A stretch of DNA of 64,000 bases, taken from contig JAJFKX010000012.1 of NCBI GenBank assembly GCA_021772985.1, positions 62,001 through 126,000 on the forward strand, written 5' to 3'. The stretch's first letter is position 1. Every line of letters begins with the position of its first letter. The stretch is from Gammaproteobacteria bacterium. GTDB taxonomy: Bacteria > Pseudomonadota > Gammaproteobacteria > Xanthomonadales > Wenzhouxiangellaceae. This document shows, piece by piece, positions 28,461 to 42,232 of the stretch. The notes under the pieces are model-generated. The model made no database searches. It was given only the letters and a program-made list of their open reading frames with translations, and was not told the DNA's origin. Both the position numbers and the translations under genes were made by a program.

Positions 28461-29414
28461 TTAGCGGTCGAAATTGTGTAAACGACGGATACGTTGTCTT
28501 ATGCTCAGACCGCCAATCAATAGCAAACCCAACAATAGCAGCGCCTGACTTGGGTTGTTAAGGGCAGGAACGGGCACAATCGGTGGTAATTCCGGTGCTG
28601 GCCCAAAATCAAAACGCTGATCGATACCTGCAGCAAATGTGTGGTTGATCTGAACATCGTCAAAGTAACCAATTTGCCCTTGATTAAAGGTGCCGACGCC
28701 AATGCTGACCAGGATAAGTGTGGCATCACCAAAATCTGATGAAAATACTGGTAGCCAGCCAGCCAGGGTGTTGATTGGAGGGCCTCCGGCTGTGTTTGGC
28801 TGGCCAAAACCACCTGTCCACCAGAATAAGCCGTTGTCTTGATCGATATTGACATCGGTCCAGCTATCGGTTGCAACCAATGAGCTGACTGGCGTTGCAG
28901 AACTTGACGTTGGACCATTCCAGGTGGGTTCGTATACCAAAGTGCCAAAGCAGTCGTTGGCACTGGCCGGGTCATCACATACCGGGTTCAAAAAAGTCAA
29001 TTTAATGGCAGGAGCTGCGGATAGGTTCTGGCCGGCATTATCGGCTTTGAAAAAGCTATAAGCCACATTCAAGCTGGCAAGAATATCATTGGGCATGCCG
29101 TAGTCATCGAGGATCCCAACTTCAGCTTTATCACCATTATCAAATTCAGTGGTAATCAACGCAGAACCAGGCGGTAACGGCTGACTGGTTTCCAAATTTC
29201 CACCAATACCTGACAAGTCAATAACACTGGCGACTCCCATTTGTCGGACGTCGTTCTCAAACCAAACAGCCGGGTCTGTATTGGTACTTGGGGCAAACTC
29301 AGTTACAGGGGTTTGCGCGGAAACAGGTAGGGAATAGATTGCCAGTAATACCATCACACCCATTAAATTGTTGCGGATTCGATAGTGCAGCATAAATGAC
29401 TCCAAAATAACCAC
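28461..29414 (-). CDS. Exported protein with VPALN/TM/Arg C-terminal sorting-like tail
   Basis: 317 aa; signal peptide; C-terminus VPVPALNNPSQALLLLGLLLIGGLSIRQRIRR resembles CTERM sorting signals. Confidence 0.6.
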   Translation of the reverse strand: MVILESFMLHYRIRNNLMGVMVLLAIYSLPVSAQTPVTEFAPSTNTDPAVWFENDVRQMGVASVIDLSGIGGNLETSQPLPPGSALITTEFDNGDKAEVGILDDYGMPNDILASLNVAYSFFKADNAGQNLSAAPAIKLTFLNPVCDDPASANDCFGTLVYEPTWNGPTSSSATPVSSLVATDSWTDVNIDQDNGLFWWTGGFGQPNTAGGPPINTLAGWLPVFSSDFGDATLILVSIGVGTFNQGQIGYFDDVQINHTFAAGIDQRFDFGPAPELPPIVPVPALNNPSQALLLLGLLLIGGLSIRQRIRRLHNFDR

Positions 29415-30201: not shown

Positions 30202-31362
30202 TTAAGCGATTTCTTTTTGCTCAGGATGTGTTTCATTACCTGCTGGTTGATCGTCTTTGACATAGACCGGTATGGCTTTATCTGAGCGCGTCTGTTTATA
30301 TGTAACAGGTAATTCCGGTGCAAACGGGCCATCCAGCTTGGGGCCACGGATACTGGCCAACAGCGCTTTTATCGGATGTGCAAAAGTATCTTCTACAGCG
30401 GTGCCTTCATATCCGCAATGGGCCATACAATTGTCACATTTAGGGTTACGGCCAGTACCATAACTATCCCATTCGGTGTCTTCGATCAATTCCCGGTAGC
30501 TGCCTGCGTAGCCTTCATCAACTAACAGATAGCATGGCTTTTGCCAACCGAAAATGTTGTAAGTGACATTACTCCAAGGCGTGCATTGATAACTTTGGTT
30601 ACCTGCCAGGAAATCCAGATACAAACTGGAGTGGTTCAACGGCCATTTGGTCTTGGTTTGTTGTTCGCGTTGTTTGCCCTGGCGGAAAATGTCACGGAAT
30701 AGTTCCTTGGATTTATTGCGTGGTAAAAACACATCTTGATTAGGCGCAAATTGGTAACTGTAACCAGGTGAAACGGTAATGCCTTCAACCCCCAGTTCGA
30801 CACAATAATCAAAAAATTCAGCAACCCGTTCCGGAACTTCACCATCAAACAGCGTGCAATTCACACTGACGCGGAAGCCTTTTTCAATCGCCATTTTAAT
30901 TGCGGCGGTGGCTTTTTCGAATATACCTTGCTGGCATACCGATTTGTCATGTTCTTCCTGCAGTCCGTCTAAATGTACCGACCAGGTGAAGTATGGGGTC
31001 GGTTTATAGTCGTCTATTTTTTTAGCCAAAAGAATGGCGTTAGTGCATAGATATACGAACTTCTTGCGAGCGACAATGCCTGCAACGATTTCCGGCATTT
31101 CCTTGTGGATTAACGGTTCACCACCGGGAATGGAAACAACCGGCGCATCGCATTCATCAACCGCACTTAAGGCATCAGCAACGCTGATTCTTTTTTGCAG
31201 GATATCTTTAGGGTACTCAATCTTGCCGCAGCCGGCACAGGCAAGATTGCACTGAAACAGTGGTTCCAGCATCAGTACCAATGGGTACTTTTTATTGCGC
31301 TTCAGCTTCTGGGTAATGATGTATTTAGCAATGCTGAACTGTTGGATGGCAGGTATGCCCAT
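30202..31362 (-). CDS. hpnH: Hopanoid biosynthesis radical SAM protein HpnH (adenosylhopane synthase)
   Basis: 386 aa; MGIPAIQQFSIAKYIITQKLKRNKKYPLVLMLEPLFQCNLACAGCGKIEYP (CxxxCxxC). Confidence 0.95.
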   Translation of the reverse strand: MGIPAIQQFSIAKYIITQKLKRNKKYPLVLMLEPLFQCNLACAGCGKIEYPKDILQKRISVADALSAVDECDAPVVSIPGGEPLIHKEMPEIVAGIVARKKFVYLCTNAILLAKKIDDYKPTPYFTWSVHLDGLQEEHDKSVCQQGIFEKATAAIKMAIEKGFRVSVNCTLFDGEVPERVAEFFDYCVELGVEGITVSPGYSYQFAPNQDVFLPRNKSKELFRDIFRQGKQREQQTKTKWPLNHSSLYLDFLAGNQSYQCTPWSNVTYNIFGWQKPCYLLVDEGYAGSYRELIEDTEWDSYGTGRNPKCDNCMAHCGYEGTAVEDTFAHPIKALLASIRGPKLDGPFAPELPVTYKQTRSDKAIPVYVKDDQPAGNETHPEQKEIA

Positions 31363-31367
31363 GGTCT

Positions 31368-31970
31368 TTAATCCTTATTAACTGGCTGCAGGTAAGGTTG
31401 CAGCAAAGTCTGGTGTTCGGTATTTAAATTGGCCCATTCCATTTTGAACCAGGGTGTAAAAGCGTTTGGGTATTGTTGTAGTTCACGGTTCAGGTCATCG
31501 GCGCTGATAAAGCGCCAGTCAGCAACCTCATTTTTATTGGGTTGTGGCTGTTCGTTGCAGCGACCGAGATATACCCAGCATAATTCGCGTTCTGAACCGC
31601 TCTCGTCGAACTGTGCATGATACTGGAATTTATAGATAAAAGCGGCATCGGTATACATGCCTAATTCCTGTTCCAGTCGCCGGTTGACGGCATAGTCAAC
31701 GGACTCTCCGCGACGTGGATGACTGCAGCAGGAATTGGACCAATACAAAGGCCATAACGGTTTATCTGCGCTTCGTTGCTGCAGCAGCAACTGACCTTGG
31801 TTATTGAATACGAACAACGAGAACGCACGGTGCAAGACGCCTGTGCCACGGTGGCAACCGGCTTTGTCCAGATGCCCGATTTCCAGGTCATTATCGTCGA
31901 CCAGGATTAAATCTTCGTCTGGAAACGAAACAACTTCATCCCTGAGTGCTGCGTTTGTTAAATTAGCCAT
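31368..31970 (-). CDS. idi: Isopentenyl-diphosphate delta-isomerase, type 1 (Nudix)
   Basis: Start at MANLTNAALRDE; YWSNSCCSHPRRGE, RRLEQELG Nudix motif, ELCWVYLG. Confidence 0.94.
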   Translation of the reverse strand: MANLTNAALRDEVVSFPDEDLILVDDNDLEIGHLDKAGCHRGTGVLHRAFSLFVFNNQGQLLLQQRSADKPLWPLYWSNSCCSHPRRGESVDYAVNRRLEQELGMYTDAAFIYKFQYHAQFDESGSERELCWVYLGRCNEQPQPNKNEVADWRFISADDLNRELQQYPNAFTPWFKMEWANLNTEHQTLLQPYLQPVNKD

Positions 31971-32919
31971 TAACAGTGACCTCCATGGCCTGATAGCCGG
32001 CCTCATTAAGTGCTTCAATGACAGTTTGCTGATTACCCGGACACAATGCAATAAATGCACCGCCGCCACCGCCGCCAGTAACTTTGGCTCCCAAAGCACC
32101 GTTTTGTCGGGCAACCTGGATCATTTCTTCTATTTCCCAGCAGGAGACCTGCAAGGCATTGAGTAAGCCCTGGCAGACGTTCATCAGTTCACCTAATTGT
32201 TGCCAGTCACCGGTTTGTAATGCATCACGTCCCTGCAGGGTGATGCTATCAATGAAATCGAATATTTGCTGGTATATCGCTGGGTTCTTTTTACGTGCAG
32301 CGGCTACCCTGGCGACCATTTTTAACGTCAGGCTTTCCACTCCACTGTAACCGACCACCAGTGGTAGTGGCGCACCCAGGGTAAGTTTTTCTATCAAAGC
32401 GGGTTCGTTTTTCTTACCTTTCTTGAACAAAATGGGATAACCATAAGTGGCTACGGTATTGTCAATGCCGGAAGGGTTGCCATGCGCTAGTTTTTCGCAT
32501 TCGAATGCCAACGTATTGACTCTATGGTCATTCAAATTAAGTTGATAGTGTTGATTTAGTGCCCGCACAATACCCACAGCCAAAGCCGCAGAACTGCCCA
32601 TGCCTGCGGCACGGTTTACATTAGCATTAACTTCAATTTTCATCTGCTGATCCATCAGGCCGAGCTGTTCCAGGATCAGAGTGACTGTTTCTTCCATTGG
32701 GTGGGGGTTATCTGGGGATTGCTGCAGTTGCACTTGTGTGCCCCAGCTAGGAATATAAATATGAATGCCATCATCACTATCGGTAATGTTGGCTTTAACA
32801 GCTAACCGCACCGGTACAGCCAGCGCGTGCCTACCATATACCACCGCATGTTCGCCGAGCAAAATGACCTTTCCATGGCCGACAGAAAAATCGTGCGTTG
32901 TATTCTCTAAGTCAGCCAT
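31963..32919 (-). CDS. Mevalonate kinase, stand-alone second copy
   Basis: 318 aa GHMP kinase: GHGKVILLGEHAVVYG, GMGSSAALAVG, GAKVTGGGGGGAFIAL. Confidence 0.92.
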   Translation of the reverse strand: MADLENTTHDFSVGHGKVILLGEHAVVYGRHALAVPVRLAVKANITDSDDGIHIYIPSWGTQVQLQQSPDNPHPMEETVTLILEQLGLMDQQMKIEVNANVNRAAGMGSSAALAVGIVRALNQHYQLNLNDHRVNTLAFECEKLAHGNPSGIDNTVATYGYPILFKKGKKNEPALIEKLTLGAPLPLVVGYSGVESLTLKMVARVAAARKKNPAIYQQIFDFIDSITLQGRDALQTGDWQQLGELMNVCQGLLNALQVSCWEIEEMIQVARQNGALGAKVTGGGGGGAFIALCPGNQQTVIEALNEAGYQAMEVTVNG

Positions 32920-35173
32920 TAACAGTTACCTCCATGGCCTGATAACCGGCGTCTTTAAGTGCTTCAATAACAGTTTGCTGATTATCCGGGCACAATGCAA
33001 TAATTGCGCCACCGCCACCGCCGCCGGTAACTTTGGCTCCCAAAGCTCCGTTTTGTCGGGCAACCTGGATCATTTCTTCTATTTCCCAGCAGGAGACCTG
33101 CAAGGCATTGAGTAAACCCTGGCAGACGTTCATCAACTCACCTAATTGTTGCCAATCACCGGTTTGCAATGCATTGCGACCTTGCAGGGTGAGTGCATCG
33201 ATGCCATTGAACATTTGTTGGTATATCGCCGGGTTCTTTTTGCGTGCAGCGGCTACCCTGGCAACCATTTTTGCAGTCAGGCTTTCCACTCCACTGTAAC
33301 CGATCACCAGCGGTAGTGGCGCACCCAGGGTAAGTTTTTCTATCAAAGCGGGTTCGTTTTTCTTACCTTTCTTGAACAAAATGGGATAACCATAAGTGGC
33401 CATGGTGTTATCCACTCCGGAAGGGCTGCCGTGTGCGACTTTCTCCCATTCGAATGCCAGTGCGTTGACCTCTACATCACTTAACTTGAGCTGGTAGTGC
33501 CTGTCCAGGGCTCGAATAATGGCAACCGCTATGGCTGCTGAACTGCCTAGACCGACCGCACGTGGTACAGCCGCAAAGACTTCAATTTTCATCGGTTGAT
33601 CGATTAATTCGAGTTGCTCAAGGATCAAGGCAATTGGCTTTTCAAAGGAATGCCGTTGGTCCGCGCGAGGATTCAAACGCTGTGATGCTCCCCAGCGGGG
33701 AATATTGATATCGATACCGTCGTCACATTCCGTGACCTTGGCTTGAATTGTCAAGGGGATCGGCACAGCCATTACATGGCTGCCATAAACAGCCGCGTGC
33801 TCACCGAGCAAGATGACCTTGCCATGCCCCACAGCCAGCTCTTCGGCGTCAGGTATTACGTTTGGGAAAGTGCCGCTTATAGCAGATTGTGCTCGAACGT
33901 CTTCTAGAATTTCGCGAGCTTTCCAGATCTTGATATTACCGCTTTCGATCAATCGGTCGACCACGGTATCAAACAGATGAGTCGGTGCACCTGCTGCCAT
34001 GGCAACACTTCGGGCATGCAGGGTCATGTGTCCTTGCTGGATGCCGCTGGTCACCAGTGCCCGCAGCGCCGAGAAATTTTGTGCCAGGCCAACAGCGCCC
34101 ATTAATTCCGCCAGCTCGCGTGCTGAATCCACCTTCAACATGCGGTGGTTGATCATCACCGATTTGTTGGATTGCAACGGTCCGCCTACTGTGCCGACTT
34201 TCATTGGAATTTCCAGCTCACCAACCAGATTTTCATCCTGGTCTTTGTACCAGCGGGTCAGTGAACTATATTGGCCACTGCGTGCTGCATAGGCATGGGC
34301 TGCTGCTTCAATGGCCCGCCAGTCGTTACCGGTTGCCAGCGCCACGGCATCCACGCCATTCATAATGCCTTTGTTGTGGGTTGCGGCACGATAAGGGTCG
34401 ACGGTAGCCAGATCGTTGGCCAGAATGATGCCATCACGAACCTGCTCGCCATCGAAACCTTTGCCGGATAGTTTTTCGGTTGGGTACACAACTTTGGCTT
34501 TGACCAATGCACGATCTGTCAGGTTTGACAAAATTCTCAGAAATACTTTACCGTCGGTGATGCTTTCAACCAACGATGCTACGCCTTCGCACATGGTATT
34601 AACCAGGTTGGCGCCCATCGCATCACAGGTATTAACCAGTAGATGAATGACCAGCATGGTTGTTCCGGTAGATGGAGAACGATGTAGATGCACTTCCAAT
34701 CCTTTAGCGCCTCCACCACGAGCGACCATTTTGGGGTGCAAACTGTTTGCCAGGTTAATAATTTCTTCGCTGCGCTGCTGGATGGTGGCTTTAGCCTTGG
34801 TCACATGGGCTATATCAACTACCTGTATCTGCCCAATCAGGATGGGCTCGGTGCTTTCTACCTGGAATCCGCCGGTATGCAAAGCCAGCTTGGCAGCTGA
34901 GCTGATTGCAGCAACAATCGAGGGTTCTTCAACAGCCATAGGCACAATATACGGCTTGTTGTTGACCACAAAGTTTAAGCCGATACCCATTGGTATCCCC
35001 AGCACGCCAACCACATTTTCGATCATTTTGTCCGCTGTGGACGGATCCAGGATATGCTTGCCGCTGCTTAGCAGGCGGTAATCTTCTTTGGACAGTAAGC
35101 CGCGTTCGTGCACAGCGCGCACACGATCTTGCAGGCTTAAGCGATAAAAACTGGGGATACGTGATTGTTCCAT
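32912..35173 (-). CDS. Class II HMG-CoA reductase / mevalonate kinase fusion
   Basis: 753 aa single ORF; N-terminal HMGR (SRIPSFYRLSLQDRV, IENVVGVLGIPMGIGLNF, VEEPSIVAAISSAAK, DAMGANLVNTMCEG), C-terminal GHMP kinase (VGHGKVILLGEHAAVYG, GLGSSAAIAV). Confidence 0.94.
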   Translation of the reverse strand: MEQSRIPSFYRLSLQDRVRAVHERGLLSKEDYRLLSSGKHILDPSTADKMIENVVGVLGIPMGIGLNFVVNNKPYIVPMAVEEPSIVAAISSAAKLALHTGGFQVESTEPILIGQIQVVDIAHVTKAKATIQQRSEEIINLANSLHPKMVARGGGAKGLEVHLHRSPSTGTTMLVIHLLVNTCDAMGANLVNTMCEGVASLVESITDGKVFLRILSNLTDRALVKAKVVYPTEKLSGKGFDGEQVRDGIILANDLATVDPYRAATHNKGIMNGVDAVALATGNDWRAIEAAAHAYAARSGQYSSLTRWYKDQDENLVGELEIPMKVGTVGGPLQSNKSVMINHRMLKVDSARELAELMGAVGLAQNFSALRALVTSGIQQGHMTLHARSVAMAAGAPTHLFDTVVDRLIESGNIKIWKAREILEDVRAQSAISGTFPNVIPDAEELAVGHGKVILLGEHAAVYGSHVMAVPIPLTIQAKVTECDDGIDINIPRWGASQRLNPRADQRHSFEKPIALILEQLELIDQPMKIEVFAAVPRAVGLGSSAAIAVAIIRALDRHYQLKLSDVEVNALAFEWEKVAHGSPSGVDNTMATYGYPILFKKGKKNEPALIEKLTLGAPLPLVIGYSGVESLTAKMVARVAAARKKNPAIYQQMFNGIDALTLQGRNALQTGDWQQLGELMNVCQGLLNALQVSCWEIEEMIQVARQNGALGAKVTGGGGGGAIIALCPDNQQTVIEALKDAGYQAMEVTVNG

Positions 35174-35186
35174 AGCTACTTTACCG

Positions 35187-36278
35187 TTAAATGGGTTTTT
35201 TGCTTACAAAACCAGAGCTGATTCCCGTTGCCGACGATCGGCTGGAATTTATCTCAACACCTTGTTCTGCTGGTGCTAATTCTAACAGACCATAGCCTGC
35301 CACTTGAACCTGATTAGCAAATTGTGCGAGCTGATTGGTGTCGGCAGCGGCGGCCATTGCAATATCACCACCACCGGCACCTGAGGGTTTAAAGGCAACA
35401 CCATATTGTCTGGCAAGTTGTGCCAGGCGGCGATGATCGTCAGTATATATCTGCGCATCAGCAACCTCGCCCAAAGCCTGCATAGCCTGGCCATAGTCTG
35501 CAATGGATTGCAGGCAATCACCCGCAGATCCATTGGCAAAGGCTTTAACACCAGTTAGTGATAATTCACCAAGGTAAGCCATATGCCTGGCGTACTGGGT
35601 TGGATTATGCAGCTTAAAATCGCTCATCCGGCCAAGGAATTCACTTGTCGACGCCGAATGCCCAATCCATATCCAAATGCACTCAATGCTCGCCGGCCAT
35701 TGTAGTTGCTGCACAACACAATCGTTATCGGTGATGCGGTACTCTATTAATCCGCCATATATGCTGGCAGCTACATCTGCACCACTGCCACGGCCATCCT
35801 GCAGTTGCTGATGTAATTTGACCAGTAACGACAACCAGCGTTGCTGATCAAAAGTTTGCCCGGGATTGCGCTGCCGATACCAGGTTGCAGCCAGCGCAAC
35901 GGTCAGTGCAGCACTGGAGCCCAATCCAAGCTTATCACCATCACCGGAGAAAAAATCACGGGTATCCAAAGTCAATGACCAACTGTGTTTTGGGGTGTGC
36001 TCCCACTCGCCCAACGCCCGCATCAAAAGTGCAATAAACGGCAGTCTTTGCTGATGGTCAGCTTGCCGCCATTGGAACTGCTGGTTGTCATCAAAATAAA
36101 AGCTCAGCGGTTGATCAAGCAATGGCAGGGCGGTGATGGTATGGCTGTCTGCGGGTGCTAGCTGAACCCGTGCGCGCCTGGTCAGACCCTGAACGATTGC
36201 AGGATATCCCTCCAGGACCGCATATTCACCTAAAATCAATGCCTTGCCCGGTGTGCTGGTTTCAATTATTTGATTCAT
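35187..36278 (-). CDS. Phosphomevalonate kinase
   Basis: GHMP kinase, TPGKALILGEYAVLEGYPAIV, GLGSSAALTVALAATW, FKPSGAGGGDIAMA; position in mevalonate cluster; start at 36278 overlaps the mvaD stop (ATGA). Confidence 0.88.
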   Translation of the reverse strand: MNQIIETSTPGKALILGEYAVLEGYPAIVQGLTRRARVQLAPADSHTITALPLLDQPLSFYFDDNQQFQWRQADHQQRLPFIALLMRALGEWEHTPKHSWSLTLDTRDFFSGDGDKLGLGSSAALTVALAATWYRQRNPGQTFDQQRWLSLLVKLHQQLQDGRGSGADVAASIYGGLIEYRITDNDCVVQQLQWPASIECIWIWIGHSASTSEFLGRMSDFKLHNPTQYARHMAYLGELSLTGVKAFANGSAGDCLQSIADYGQAMQALGEVADAQIYTDDHRRLAQLARQYGVAFKPSGAGGGDIAMAAAADTNQLAQFANQVQVAGYGLLELAPAEQGVEINSSRSSATGISSGFVSKKPI

Positions 36279-37276
36279 TGTGGCTGCAGGCGTACGCCGC
36301 GTCCAAGACCACAAGTGATGACTTTAACTACCCCCGGCACCTGTTGCAGGCATTCGGCAACCTGACTAGTCGCACCCGCAGTGCAAACCGCTTTTACCTG
36401 TGGCCCTGCATCCATAGTGAAGCAAACCGGTAAGCCGGCAGCGCGCAAATCACGGATACTGTGCATGGCAGCCAGGGATGCAGCATTCCAATAAATCACA
36501 CCAGGTTGTGCGGCCAGTGCTGAGGCGTGCATTTTTAGCGTACTAAATTCAGTCACATTTGCCAGAGTCTCAAAATCTTTTGCTGCGATGGCATCTCTGG
36601 CAGTTTCGATATCTGCCTGGGCACCTGCAATCCAGGCCGGGTAATAAGGGGAGGTCTGCATGGTTTGTCGCATGCCATCCGTTGAACTGATTTTTTTACT
36701 GCCGGCATCAGTCACTGCAATCAGCACTTTCAGGTTCCAATAATCCGGCTGGTGCAGCTGTGTGGCGATACTGTCCAAACCATCTTTGCGCTGGCCGTGC
36801 GCCATTTCCACAATTCCACCAAATATTGAGCGGGCTGCAGATCCGGATCCTCGCCTGGCCAGCATTGATAACTGGCCGGGTTCCAGGCTCGCTTGCAAAG
36901 CCTTGCCGGTAGCCAGAGCCAGTGCAGCAAAACCAGATGCAGATGAGGCCAGTCCGGCAGCTGTGGGGAAATTGTTATGGCTGTTAACCTGCGCGTATGG
37001 ACGTTGCTGGTTAGTACTTTTGACCTGTTGATAAACCAGATTCAGAAATGCACTGATGCGGTCGGCTGCTGATTCACCGGGGTGTTGATTATTCAATTTA
37101 ATGCAGTCATGGTTCAAATCGGAATCAAAACTGACACTGGTGGTAGTGGTTAAACCATCCAAGGTCAGTGACAACGAACCAGTGGCAGGCAGGTTGAGTT
37201 TGTCATCACGTTTGCCCCAGTATTTGATCAGGGCAATATTGGCATGTGCGACAGCGGTAGCTTGAGTGTTGTGCAT
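36275..37276 (-). CDS. mvaD: Diphosphomevalonate decarboxylase
   Basis: AVAHANIALIKYWGKRDDKLNLPATGSLSLTL, NNFPTAAGLASSASGFAALA. Confidence 0.96.
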   Translation of the reverse strand: MHNTQATAVAHANIALIKYWGKRDDKLNLPATGSLSLTLDGLTTTTSVSFDSDLNHDCIKLNNQHPGESAADRISAFLNLVYQQVKSTNQQRPYAQVNSHNNFPTAAGLASSASGFAALALATGKALQASLEPGQLSMLARRGSGSAARSIFGGIVEMAHGQRKDGLDSIATQLHQPDYWNLKVLIAVTDAGSKKISSTDGMRQTMQTSPYYPAWIAGAQADIETARDAIAAKDFETLANVTEFSTLKMHASALAAQPGVIYWNAASLAAMHSIRDLRAAGLPVCFTMDAGPQVKAVCTAGATSQVAECLQQVPGVVKVITCGLGRGVRLQPQ

Positions 37277-37281
37277 AACGA

Positions 37282-38529
37282 TTATGCTACAGCGGCTGCA
37301 GATGGCCGCAGAAAACGTTGTCGGTAGGCACTAAAGTGCTCATTGATCCAGTCTGTCTGAAGGCCGAAATCGGTCAATGTATGTTGATGATGCCCATGTC
37401 TGTGTTTGGGGTTGCGGGTTAACCAGGCCTCCTGGGATGCGGCGGTTTGTGGTTGCCAATCCAATTCGAAATGGGCATAAATCTGCTGCAGCGTATTCAG
37501 TGGTGAGGTCGTGAGTTGGTGGTAATCCACGTCAAATATCCGTTCCGAGGGGATCTTTTTTTGATCTCTGGTTAGCAATGCCGATGCCAACGCCTGTGAC
37601 CACCGGTGGATCACTTCCGGGCCAATCTGCCGGGCATCATGCCGATCACTAAAGGCGCCTCGCAGTTCAATTGTCAGACTGGCCAGCGATGACATCACTT
37701 CAGTGGGTTCCCGATGGGTTTGAATAATGCAGGCGTCCGGATAAATTTCCAGTAATTCGCTCAGTCCAAACAGGTGCGCAGGTGCTTTTAGTACCCAGCG
37801 TTGAGTTGGAGCCTGCCACTGCATGTGCTGTAAAAAACGCCGGTGATAACGGTATGCAGCGCTGCGACTTTGTTGCTGCAGCCAGCTTTGATAGCGAGGC
37901 ACATAGTGGGTCGTCTGAAATTGATAACTATGCAGTGCATGGGCTGTTATCACCAGACATTCCTGAGGCAAACCGGCCTTGACAGCATGAATTCGATGGA
38001 AGTCGGGTGCCAGAGCATCAAGCCATAACAATTGTGATGCCACTTTGCGTTGGATTGCCGCATGTTGCCGGGCATGTCGGCTTGCTGCAATCACAGGTTG
38101 CATGGTTTCCCAGGTTAATGGTGAACGATGCCGGGGATCACTGGCCAACAGGTTTTGTAACATGGTTGTGCCGGTACGAGGCAATCCGACCACGAATATC
38201 GGTTTTTTAATGGGTTGTTGGGTAATTGGCGGGTTGTCAGCAATGACTTTTTCGATTTCCAGCCGATGTTTGAGTAATCTGAGCAAATCAAAACGAGCTG
38301 CGATTCTTCCGGGCAGGTGCAGCTCAGCATCGGTTTCAAAATCCTGGCATAACAAAGTTAATGGTAAATTTGGGTCAGGGTCTCCCCATTGATCCCATTG
38401 AGCCAGTTCCTGTGCTGCTGTTAACAGTCGATGACTGGAAAGTTTGGGATTCTCTAAGCCAAAATATCGCAGCAGCCGACCTGACTGCTTAGCGGTACCG
38501 ATAGTGTAACGGCGCAGCTGGCGTAACAT
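37282..38529 (-). CDS. Sulfotransferase family protein
   Basis: PIFVVGLPRTGTTMLQNLLASDPRHRSPLTWE PAPS-binding loop; LKAPAHLFGLSELLEIYPDACIIQTHREP; ORF also allows a start at 38556. Confidence 0.88.
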   Translation of the reverse strand: MLRQLRRYTIGTAKQSGRLLRYFGLENPKLSSHRLLTAAQELAQWDQWGDPDPNLPLTLLCQDFETDAELHLPGRIAARFDLLRLLKHRLEIEKVIADNPPITQQPIKKPIFVVGLPRTGTTMLQNLLASDPRHRSPLTWETMQPVIAASRHARQHAAIQRKVASQLLWLDALAPDFHRIHAVKAGLPQECLVITAHALHSYQFQTTHYVPRYQSWLQQQSRSAAYRYHRRFLQHMQWQAPTQRWVLKAPAHLFGLSELLEIYPDACIIQTHREPTEVMSSLASLTIELRGAFSDRHDARQIGPEVIHRWSQALASALLTRDQKKIPSERIFDVDYHQLTTSPLNTLQQIYAHFELDWQPQTAASQEAWLTRNPKHRHGHHQHTLTDFGLQTDWINEHFSAYRQRFLRPSAAAVA

Positions 38530-38583
38530 TAAGCACTCCCTGAAAGTCGGTAGCATACGTTTAATTTTTGCATGACTGACTCT

Positions 38584-39588
38584 TTACCCAAAATAACCAT
38601 GTTGCCTGTACCAGTCCAGTGCGTCACTGAGAGCTGCCTGAGCCGGTCGTGGTTGATAACCCAGCTCATTAATCGCCCGCTGACTACTGAAAAACATCGG
38701 CTTACGGGCTAATTTTACCCCAGTAACGGTTGTCAACGGCTCCCGCCGCGTAATCAAATGCGCCCAGGCTTCGCTGATATAAGCCAATGGCAATACCAAG
38801 GGAGCCGGCAGTTGAACTGTTGGAGGCTTGCGATTCAGCAATTTTGCCAGTTTGAAAAGCACCTGTTGCAAACTTAAATTTTCACTGCCAAGAATATATT
38901 GGCGGCCCGGTTCGCCAAGTTCAAGCGCTAATAGATGCCCATTAGCAACATCATCAACATGGACAACATTCAGGCCGGTATCGACAAATGCCGGGACCTT
39001 GCCGCGGGCAGCTTCCACGATCAGTCGGCCGGTAGGGGTGGGTTTGATATCGCCTGGACCGACAGGTGTGCTGGGATGGACAATCACTGCTGGCAGCTGC
39101 TGTTCAGTGATCATTGCTTTGACCTTCTGTTCAGCTGCATATTTGGTTTTTTTGTAAGCGCCGATCAAATCTTTGGGGTTAAGCGATGTATCTTCATCAC
39201 TGGGTGTGCCATCTGAATGTAAGCCGATGGTGGCCACGGTGCTGGTGTAAACAATACGTTTTACACCAGCTTCCAGTGCAGCCTGCATTAGTGTTTGTGT
39301 GCCGGTGACATTAACTGCGTACATATAATCCGGGTCAGGCACCCATAGACGATAATCAGCAGCCACATGAAATAGATAGTCGCAATCATTAATCGCCTGG
39401 TGCAGCGACACATGATCGGTCAAATCACCGGTTACCTGTTCCACGTCCAGTCCGGCCAAGTTACGCAAATCAGCATTGGCCCTCGCCAAGCAACGTACAT
39501 GATGACCGGCAGCCAGTAAACGACGTGTTACAGCCGCACCTACAAAGCCGGTGGCACCAGTTACCAGGCTAAGCGGTTTAGTTGTCAT
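38584..39588 (-). CDS. hpnA: Hopanoid-associated sugar epimerase HpnA
   Basis: 334 aa NAD-dependent epimerase: LVTGATGFVGAAVTRRLLAAGHHVRCLAR; neighbourhood. Confidence 0.88.
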   Translation of the reverse strand: MTTKPLSLVTGATGFVGAAVTRRLLAAGHHVRCLARANADLRNLAGLDVEQVTGDLTDHVSLHQAINDCDYLFHVAADYRLWVPDPDYMYAVNVTGTQTLMQAALEAGVKRIVYTSTVATIGLHSDGTPSDEDTSLNPKDLIGAYKKTKYAAEQKVKAMITEQQLPAVIVHPSTPVGPGDIKPTPTGRLIVEAARGKVPAFVDTGLNVVHVDDVANGHLLALELGEPGRQYILGSENLSLQQVLFKLAKLLNRKPPTVQLPAPLVLPLAYISEAWAHLITRREPLTTVTGVKLARKPMFFSSQRAINELGYQPRPAQAALSDALDWYRQHGYFG

Positions 39589-42232
39589 GGTGGTCTCCAG
39601 CCGGAGCAGGGACTACCACCGGCATCAAAGCCGGTAAAACCAATAGTGTGGCGGTTACCATCAAGCTCAAACCAAGCGCCAGTAGCAAGCCCATGCTGGC
39701 GGTGCCGGTATGTGTTGAAAACATCAGGTTGCCGAAGCTGAGTACGGTAGTTAAGGCACCGAATACAATACCTCGTGCGGTGGTGGTGCGTAATACATTT
39801 GCCAGCTGACCATCGGCGGTAGTAGGCATGTCACGGCTACGGTGCCGGTAAACCAGGTGGACACCGTTATCCACAGCAACCCCGAGTAGCAAAGGCAGCG
39901 CAACCACATTGGCAAAATTAAGTGGCACTTTAATTAAAACCAGAATGGCGCCGGTGACAAGGCCACCCAAAAGCAATGGCACCAGCACCCGGGTGCTATC
40001 ACCAACACTGCGCAAAATAATGATCAAAACCAGACCAATTCCAAGTACTGCCCAGAGCATGGCTTCCCGCAATGCAGCACTGACTGCCTGGCCGGAGCGT
40101 TGTTGCAGAACCGGCATTCCGGTGACCTGTGGGGCCAGGTTGGCTACTTTACCGATCAACTCGCGGACATAAGCAAAATCATTGGTGTCACCGGCAGGAA
40201 AAACCTGCACTATGTAAGTCCCCGATGGGCTGCGCCAGCGGTCACTTATGTGGTCGGGTAATGCATCACTGGTGACTTGTTGGTCGACGCTTATGACTTG
40301 TTGCAGGCGCTTTAAGGTATCAGGCAGCAAGCCGATCAATGCGCTATTTAATGCCGGGTAAACTGATGTGCCATGATCCGAATTTTCCAGCTGTTGTAAT
40401 GTGGTATATAGCTGATTGGCGACAGGCGTATCAAATTTCGGTAATGCCAAGGCCAATTGGCTGATGGCGTAATGCAGGCGATCTTGATCAAGTACAGGCA
40501 GGTTGTCTGGAATTGATAATAAATCCAATCCGGTGGTCCAGCGAAGATCTTCCAGCAACAACAGTTTTTCCTCTTGATCAACCGGGATCAGGTCAAGCAA
40601 GGAGATGGCGCGATCAACTTCTGGTAATGCACGCAGCTGCATGGTGATACGTTGTGCTTCACTGGCATTATCGCTAAGTACTTGCAAGTTCCGGTGCCCG
40701 GTCGATTGACTGCGCAATAATTGGCGCAAAGTATTCACAGATTCTGATTGCGGATCACGCAGATTAAGTGGGTCGCTATCAAACGGTAACTGCCAAGCCA
40801 GGGCTATACTTGACAAAGCGATCAATAATGCACCGATACGGACTTTCCTACGCTGCAGCAGGGGAGCATCCAGCAGGGTTTCCGGCAACTGCAAGCGGCT
40901 TCGGGTGTTATCAACTTTGGGCGCAGGGGTGACAGCCAGTAGTGCAGGCAGCAGGCTGTAGCTGATAGCAAAAGTGATGAACATGGCTACGCCGGCTATT
41001 AATCCAAGCTCAGCCACGCCACGAAAGGCCGTTGGCATAAATGCGAAAAAACCGATTGCAGTGGTAATTGCACTCAGCGCCAGAGCACCGGCCAGTAACC
41101 GGGCGGTGCTGAGGATTGCCATATGTTTGGACGTTTGCTGAACAAGTTGTTCGCGGTAGCGCAGCATAAAATGAATGCCATAATTCACGCCCAGGCCGAT
41201 ATACAAAACGGTAAAGGCAATTGAAATCAGGTTGATACGGCCTACTGCCAAAGCAGCAAAACCCAATGTCAGGGTGAAACCTGCGGCCAGGCTTAGCAAT
41301 GCAATGGCGACCAACCGAATTGAACGCAAGGCCCACAACATAACCAAAGTCACCAGGATAATGGCCAGAATACCGGCACGTTTGGCACCGGTCAAAGCAC
41401 TCAGCAATTCCTCATGTTCCAGTGCTACCGGGCCGCTAAGCAACATCCGCACAGGTTGCTCTGCGGTCAGATTCAGGTCAGTGCGAACCTTATCAGCTGC
41501 AGCCATGACCTCACGGCCGGCCATCACCTGGGTAAAATTCAATCGCGGTTCGACCACCAGGGTTTCGCGAAAAACACTTGTCTGCGCGATGTTATCTGGA
41601 GTGGCAAAAAACACCTGTTCCCAGGACATCGCGGCTGGTTGGCCGGTTAATACCTGTGTTGTGGTTCGGTCAATAGCCGACAGCATATTATCCAGCCCAG
41701 CCGCTTGGGTTTCGGCGTAGTCGCCGGCCTCGGTCAGTAGTTCAAACAGCGTGGCTGCTTGCGGGTCTTCCGCCAGGCGGGTCAGAAAAGGCTGTGCAGC
41801 ACTCAGCTGGTCGCCTAATTCAGTCAGCTCTTCAGGGCTCAAAAACAACAGGCCATTTTGCTGGAAATAGGCCTCGCCCGCGAACCAATCAACTGCAGCA
41901 AAATGCTGCTGGTCAGCCAATAGCCGGGTTTTTACCTGATGGGCAGTGTTGCGCGCCTGTTCCGGTGTCGGAGCTTCAATCACCACCAGCAGGTTATTGG
42001 CCAGGGTAGGGAATTCACGTCGGAATCGATCGAATGTTTGCCGAAAAGGCAAGCTGGCATCCAGCATATCTGCAGTGTCGGTATTCACACCCAGATGCTT
42101 GACGGTGTAATCCAGTGCACCGGCACTGGCCAAAAACAATAGTCCGATAATGAACCACGGGTAGCGAATAACCAGCTTCAACCAGGCCATCAGTGCATTT
42201 TGGATACGGGTGTTGTCTGCGGTTTTTTTCAT
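39578..42232 (-). CDS. hpnN: Hopanoid-associated RND transporter HpnN
   Basis: 884 aa RND protein with two TM bundles and MMPL/SSD-like segments; next to hpnA/hpnM. Confidence 0.88.
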   Translation of the reverse strand: MKKTADNTRIQNALMAWLKLVIRYPWFIIGLLFLASAGALDYTVKHLGVNTDTADMLDASLPFRQTFDRFRREFPTLANNLLVVIEAPTPEQARNTAHQVKTRLLADQQHFAAVDWFAGEAYFQQNGLLFLSPEELTELGDQLSAAQPFLTRLAEDPQAATLFELLTEAGDYAETQAAGLDNMLSAIDRTTTQVLTGQPAAMSWEQVFFATPDNIAQTSVFRETLVVEPRLNFTQVMAGREVMAAADKVRTDLNLTAEQPVRMLLSGPVALEHEELLSALTGAKRAGILAIILVTLVMLWALRSIRLVAIALLSLAAGFTLTLGFAALAVGRINLISIAFTVLYIGLGVNYGIHFMLRYREQLVQQTSKHMAILSTARLLAGALALSAITTAIGFFAFMPTAFRGVAELGLIAGVAMFITFAISYSLLPALLAVTPAPKVDNTRSRLQLPETLLDAPLLQRRKVRIGALLIALSSIALAWQLPFDSDPLNLRDPQSESVNTLRQLLRSQSTGHRNLQVLSDNASEAQRITMQLRALPEVDRAISLLDLIPVDQEEKLLLLEDLRWTTGLDLLSIPDNLPVLDQDRLHYAISQLALALPKFDTPVANQLYTTLQQLENSDHGTSVYPALNSALIGLLPDTLKRLQQVISVDQQVTSDALPDHISDRWRSPSGTYIVQVFPAGDTNDFAYVRELIGKVANLAPQVTGMPVLQQRSGQAVSAALREAMLWAVLGIGLVLIIILRSVGDSTRVLVPLLLGGLVTGAILVLIKVPLNFANVVALPLLLGVAVDNGVHLVYRHRSRDMPTTADGQLANVLRTTTARGIVFGALTTVLSFGNLMFSTHTGTASMGLLLALGLSLMVTATLLVLPALMPVVVPAPAGDHHDN

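Follow-up and report, generated by a model that had tools for sequence, protein, structure and literature searches.

Partial gene conversion between bacterial paralogues has been documented for RF1 and RF2 (PMC4530459). A homogenised stretch beside a diverged stretch is also found in the GOT1 paralogues of a copepod, which are likewise duplicate metabolic enzymes; islands of divergence next to converted sequence have been interpreted there as places where selection may have favoured a new function (PMC3728101). The enzymes considered here are class II HMG-CoA reductase (HMGR) and GHMP-family mevalonate kinase (MvK), both known families (TIGR00532, TIGR00549; PDB 1qax, 2hfs), and each of the two domains exceeds its curated cut-off and has the motifs expected of it. 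At the locus that we describe, they form one polypeptide, as they do in relatives of this genome, and a second, stand-alone MvK lies directly downstream, between the fusion and the gene for isopentenyl-diphosphate isomerase (IDI). The window, meaning the whole 64,000-nucleotide stretch of DNA that was analysed, carries the following mevalonate-pathway cluster:

36275-37276, minus strand: diphosphomevalonate decarboxylase
35187-36314, minus strand: phosphomevalonate kinase-like gene
32912..35173, minus strand: HMGR-MvK fusion (753 aa), a degradative-type HMGR domain followed by an MvK domain from residue 447 (TIGR00532 404.8 bits, TIGR00549 249.7 bits, each above cut-off)
31963..32919, minus strand: stand-alone MvK (318 aa), the second copy (TIGR00549 258.9 bits, against a cut-off of 163 bits)
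31368..31970, minus strand: type 1 IDI (NF002995 179 bits, and TIGR02150), its true start likely at 31970
30202-31362, minus strand: hopanoid gene hpnH

The pair resembles RF1-RF2 in that bacterial paralogues have had one part of the gene converted while parts of distinct function are kept separate, a pattern seen by sliding window and by tree conflict. RF1 and RF2 are ancient and functionally distinct, whereas the MvK pair is tandem and found in a single genome, one member is a fusion domain, and a functional difference is only possible. The likeness to the GOT1 genes is that of a homogenised stretch adjoining a diverged one; that system is eukaryotic, while the MvK pair sits in a single bacterial genome. 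Unlike class II HMGR and GHMP-family MvK as known, the two enzymes are joined here and the additional kinase occurs in this genome only. Both the process and the enzyme are already known. The locus gives a clean natural instance of the former acting on the latter rather than a novel type of system, and offers a tractable bacterial case of intragenic concerted evolution.

We compared the two kinase regions along their length. They align without gaps over 307 codons at a constant offset of 949 bp, and nucleotide identity jumps abruptly from 65% on the 5' side to 92% on the 3' side. The step falls at 33400/33401 of the window in the fused copy and at 32451/32452 in the stand-alone copy, and divides the pair as follows:

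33401..33835, minus strand: diverged 5' half of the fused kinase, with motifs 1 and 2 and the catalytic Lys and Asp; 65% nucleotide identity to 32452-32886
32452..32886, minus strand: diverged 5' half of the stand-alone kinase
32915..33400, minus strand: homogenised 3' half of the fused copy; 92% identity to 31966-32451
31966..32451, minus strand: homogenised 3' half of the stand-alone copy, partner of 32915..33400
33312..33400, minus strand: exact 89-bp tract from the breakpoint, fused copy
32363..32451, minus strand: exact 89-bp tract from the breakpoint, stand-alone copy
33048..33115, minus strand: exact 68-bp tract, fused copy (partner 32099-32166)

The copies differ at 152 positions in the 435 nt of kinase nt 1-435 and at 39 in the 486 nt of nt 436-921. 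The best single breakpoint is kinase nt 435, with a maximum chi2 of 101 against a largest value of 26 in 10,000 permutations. At polymorphic sites the copies agree over runs of up to 57, a length reached in 0 of 20,000 permutations. These results bear out the preliminary description, which had claimed a sharp breakpoint between like 3' halves and unlike 5' halves and an exact match of 32363-32451 to 33312-33400; that match begins at the breakpoint itself. Within the 3' half, similarity is uneven. Two exact tracts, one of 89 bp and one of 68 bp (kinase nt 435-523 and 720-787), lie around a more divergent island, with pS about 0.4 in nt 558-720, and three segments fit marginally better than two (BIC 852 vs 855), the 89-bp tract being a possible third segment. 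This unevenness suggests more than one conversion age, and the overall difference of 8% in the 3' half means that conversion did not happen in one recent step. DNA identity reaches 77% in the first ~20 codons (motif 1), with synonymous sites as diverged as in the rest of the 5' half.

The step is equally present at synonymous sites, where uniform divergence would have spoken against conversion. Between the copies, pS is 0.775 in the 5' half, that is, saturated (which prevents dating of the 5' divergence), while dS is 0.25 in the 3' half. Among codons for the same amino acid, 54 of 89 differ synonymously in the 5' half and 23 of 150 in the 3' half. This latter stretch is not slow or conserved in general: the fused copy and its orthologue in the congener G001 differ there by a dS of 1.5, with comparable values between genera. 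Judged from these sequences, it is recombination, not protein-level selection, that made the identity step, because synonymous sites are saturated upstream of it and close downstream. Selection homogenising the C-terminal half had been offered as an alternative cause; acting on the protein alone, it is ruled out by the synonymous step together with the orthologue divergence in the same segment.

We further investigated the distribution of the second kinase, sampling one genome per species and one congener. Matches were found in 41 of 43 family genomes, and the second MvK is present only in the genome of the window; the other matching genomes carry the same HMGR-MvK fusion only, and their second matches, at 24-30%, seem to be the adjacent phosphomevalonate kinase or the remaining part of a split fusion. 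In G001, the only congener compared, the fusion is followed directly by IDI, with no second MvK. Across 398 order-level and 387 class-level genomes, strong matches lie in fusion frames or in frames truncated at contig ends. One match, in a 390-aa open frame (G587, L100), turned out to be a fusion truncated in this way. Searching the stand-alone 5' half in the same order and class genomes and in GTDB r220 contigs returned only ordinary fusions or more distant kinases. The fusion itself occurs in nearly all family genomes examined and in part of the order and class; our literature search, which missed most subscription journals, found no paper describing it in these bacteria.

Trees of the two halves conflict. 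In the 3'-half tree the stand-alone and fused copies are sisters (98/95), and forcing the fused copy together with G001 costs 13.0 log units and is rejected (AU p=0.013). In the 5'-half tree the fused copy groups with G001 (89/74) and the stand-alone copy sits on a long branch of 0.73; placing it with the fused copy (AU p=0.257) or with family genus g3 (p=0.411) is not rejected in either case. Thus the converted part clusters within the genome while the rest does not, less sharply on the 5' side given the p=0.257 for the two copies together. Quartet sites favour the two-copy pair by 15:0:0 in nt 435-558 and by 8:0:0 in nt 720-788. Composition differs between this genome and its relatives, which weakens nucleotide-based placement. 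The synonymous step, parallel to the amino-acid step, and the 3'-half tree conflict are what the earlier proposal of gene conversion predicted, and conversion is the best-supported reading of the pair. That partial gene conversion took place at all we regard as very probable.

The fused copy is 84% and 86% identical in amino acids to G001 in its 5' and 3' halves, and is considered vertically inherited in both on that basis. The stand-alone copy is 63% and 84% identical. Given the trees and this difference between a vertically inherited fused copy and a split stand-alone one, conversion would have followed the separation from G001. The fused copy is the likely donor because both its halves are vertically inherited. 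Its 3' branch is 0.019, against 0.060 for the stand-alone copy, and at 3'-half sites where the two differ it matches G001 at 20, while the stand-alone copy matches G001 at 13, which favours a fused donor modestly. Because the stand-alone copy, not the fused one, matches G001 at those 13 sites, the direction was not strictly one-way.

We propose that a tandem duplication copied the fusion's kinase domain, apparently in place rather than by import, and that the duplicated 3' end, with its built-in ribosome-binding sequence and start codon, would have allowed a translatable stand-alone MvK to form between the fusion and IDI. Both copies would then have diverged to synonymous saturation. After the split from G001, at least one gene conversion, presumably through RecA-type homologous recombination, would have overwritten the stand-alone 3' ~490 bp, mainly with sequence of the fused copy if the donor was as indicated above. 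The 5' halves would have been left unconverted, and may differ in kinetics or regulation. The whole account, old local duplication followed by partial conversion of the stand-alone 3' half, seems to us reasonably probable. It would amount to the duplicate of a fused domain escaping as a free enzyme, with one half homogenised by conversion and the other diverged.

The junctions bear on how the copy arose. The fused kinase ends as follows:

32912..32935, minus strand: reads ATGGAGGTAACTGTTAATGGCTGA, containing a GGAGGT ribosome-binding sequence and the stand-alone ATG, with an 8-nt stop/start overlap

The kinase end ATGGAGGT(A/C)ACTGTTAATGG is common to the fused/stand-alone junction, the stand-alone/IDI junction (31963-31986) and the fusion/IDI junction of G001 (L035), and all three have GGAGGT, then a downstream ATG and an 8-nt gene overlap. 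Because this arrangement is shared, the stand-alone start would be a copy of the local IDI-start context, acquired through the original duplication or through conversion. The 11-residue leader of the stand-alone copy is weakly similar to the start of IDI, with 12/27 matches outside the ATGGCT that both have (empirical p about 0.02); model confidence is very low for the first 8 residues. An origin of the leader from the fusion linker was considered and set aside, with 12/33 matches vs 18/33 to the IDI start, a weakly informative comparison. The GC3 of the stand-alone 5' half is 0.469, a native value near that of the window, while relatives have about 0.70. The anatomy shows how the C-terminal domain of a fusion could become a ready-to-translate gene, its last codons encoding the next ribosome-binding sequence and start.

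As an observation on the protein side, the last kinase codons (MEVTVNG) encode GGAGGT and the overlapping next start, so that the C-terminus of the protein doubles as a translation-initiation signal. In two further loci, L007 and L008, the aligned position reads GGCGGT and the end differs.

A stand-alone copy of chimeric origin is the alternative that deserves most weight, although we think it unlikely. Its 5' half, or the whole gene, would have been imported from an unsampled relative in the family, and recombination with the resident fusion would have replaced or supplied the 3' half. Consistent with this, the stand-alone 5' half is no closer in amino acids to the fused copy of its own genome (61%) than to family genera g1 and g3 (63-66%), it has no firm position in the tree, and the duplication is in no other genome searched. 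Against it, the GC3 fits this genome and not its GC-richer relatives, no close donor appeared among the order genomes, class genomes or GTDB r220 contigs, and the start codon and ribosome-binding sequence match the local junction. An old duplication has difficulties of its own: it would require loss of the second copy in G001, the resemblance of the leader to IDI is weak, and the 5'-half trees reject neither the two-copy grouping nor the grouping with g3. We nevertheless regard duplication in situ, long ago and followed by loss from G001, as a more probable origin than import, because of the native GC3 and the local start context.

The exact 89- and 68-bp repeats, in a locus known from an assembled contig alone, also raise the idea of an assembly artefact, with two copies mis-joined or collapsed across the 89-bp repeat. 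Yet one contig holds each of the two 5' types and each of the two 3' types, 39 distinct differences included, the conserved order HMGR-MvK-IDI and the intact frames fit a real locus, and joins swapped at the repeat would still leave the 65%/92% step; we judge an artefact very improbable. Slightly less credible still is a duplication that took place recently, once G001 had separated, and whose 5' half then evolved explosively without any recombination. It could appeal to the two-copy 5' grouping that was not rejected (AU p=0.257) and to the speed of both 5' halves in amino acids, but synonymous sites are saturated in the 5' half only of the same pair, which protein-level acceleration cannot cause, and a rescue would need a mutation-rate boundary inside the gene. 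Selection or RNA-level constraint, in place of recombination, can point to the 3' end, where the following gene has its ribosome-binding sequence and start, but is refuted, to the point of being scarcely conceivable, because the orthologues' dS of 1.5 in the same 3' half, comparable between genera, leaves synonymous sites free to change.

Partial conversion of an old local duplicate would leave two kinases whose 5' halves have evolved apart, and we further examined what these may do. Both match TIGR00549 over its full length. In Leishmania major MvK the catalytic and binding residues are K18, E24, H25, S112, E144 and D155 (PMC1851959); K17, E23, H24, S110, E142 and D153 of the stand-alone copy stand in invariant columns, with the same residues in the fused copy. 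The catalytic Lys, motif-1 Glu-His, motif-2 GSSAA, Mg-binding Glu and catalytic Asp are all present. An AlphaFold2 model of the stand-alone copy gives a confident MvK (GHMP kinase) fold (pLDDT 89), whose best PDB match is L. major MvK 2hfs (TM 0.83, E 2.8e-28). Both copies are predicted to be mevalonate kinases with intact catalytic residues.

The breakpoint lies three residues past the catalytic Asp (stand-alone residue 156/157). Motifs 1 and 2 therefore fall in the diverged half, and what is left of the N-terminal domain falls in the converted half together with the C-terminal domain and its motif 3. In the fused copy, the 5' half (33401-33835) is accelerated, with 14-15 unique residues vs 1-2 in G001 (chi2 9-12); the HMGR domain and the kinase 3' half of the fusion show no such excess. 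Patches of stand-alone 5' residues in the fused copy found no support as the cause, the 5' half of the fused copy being 61% like the stand-alone one and that of G001 slightly more so, at 63%. Among near-invariant columns (conserved in >=95% of 66 relatives), three in the 5' half are altered in the stand-alone copy (P102N, L107M, A116G) and three others in the fused copy (A467V, A475T, C576W); neither copy departs from any such column in the 3' half. Departures in other sequences have a median of 0 and a maximum of 2. The departures are compatible with complementary relaxation or specialisation, and functional divergence between the copies is possible. A further, tentative idea, which we hold doubtful, is that the kinases are undergoing subfunctionalisation in the 5' halves, which bind substrate and ATP, with the C-terminal domain kept common to both by conversion. 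If so, the free kinase may differ in feedback sensitivity or act independently of any HMGR-MvK channelling.

The setting gives the extra kinase some metabolic interest. No dxs over the family cut-off was found in the genome, and HMG-CoA synthase has one match, barely above cut-off; from these results the mevalonate route probably supplies the isoprenoids, and, with no dxs, is probably their only supply. An extra kinase could then affect flux. Hopanoid-type genes stand on either side of the cluster: HpnH on one, and an HpnA-like epimerase (38584-39588) and an MMPL-family transporter (39578-42232) on the other, with a sulfotransferase-family gene (37282-38556) between these two and the mevalonate genes. 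At 28461-29414, a 317-aa protein with no Pfam match has a hydrophobic C-terminal segment followed by a basic tail, and its C-terminus resembles a C-terminal sorting signal.
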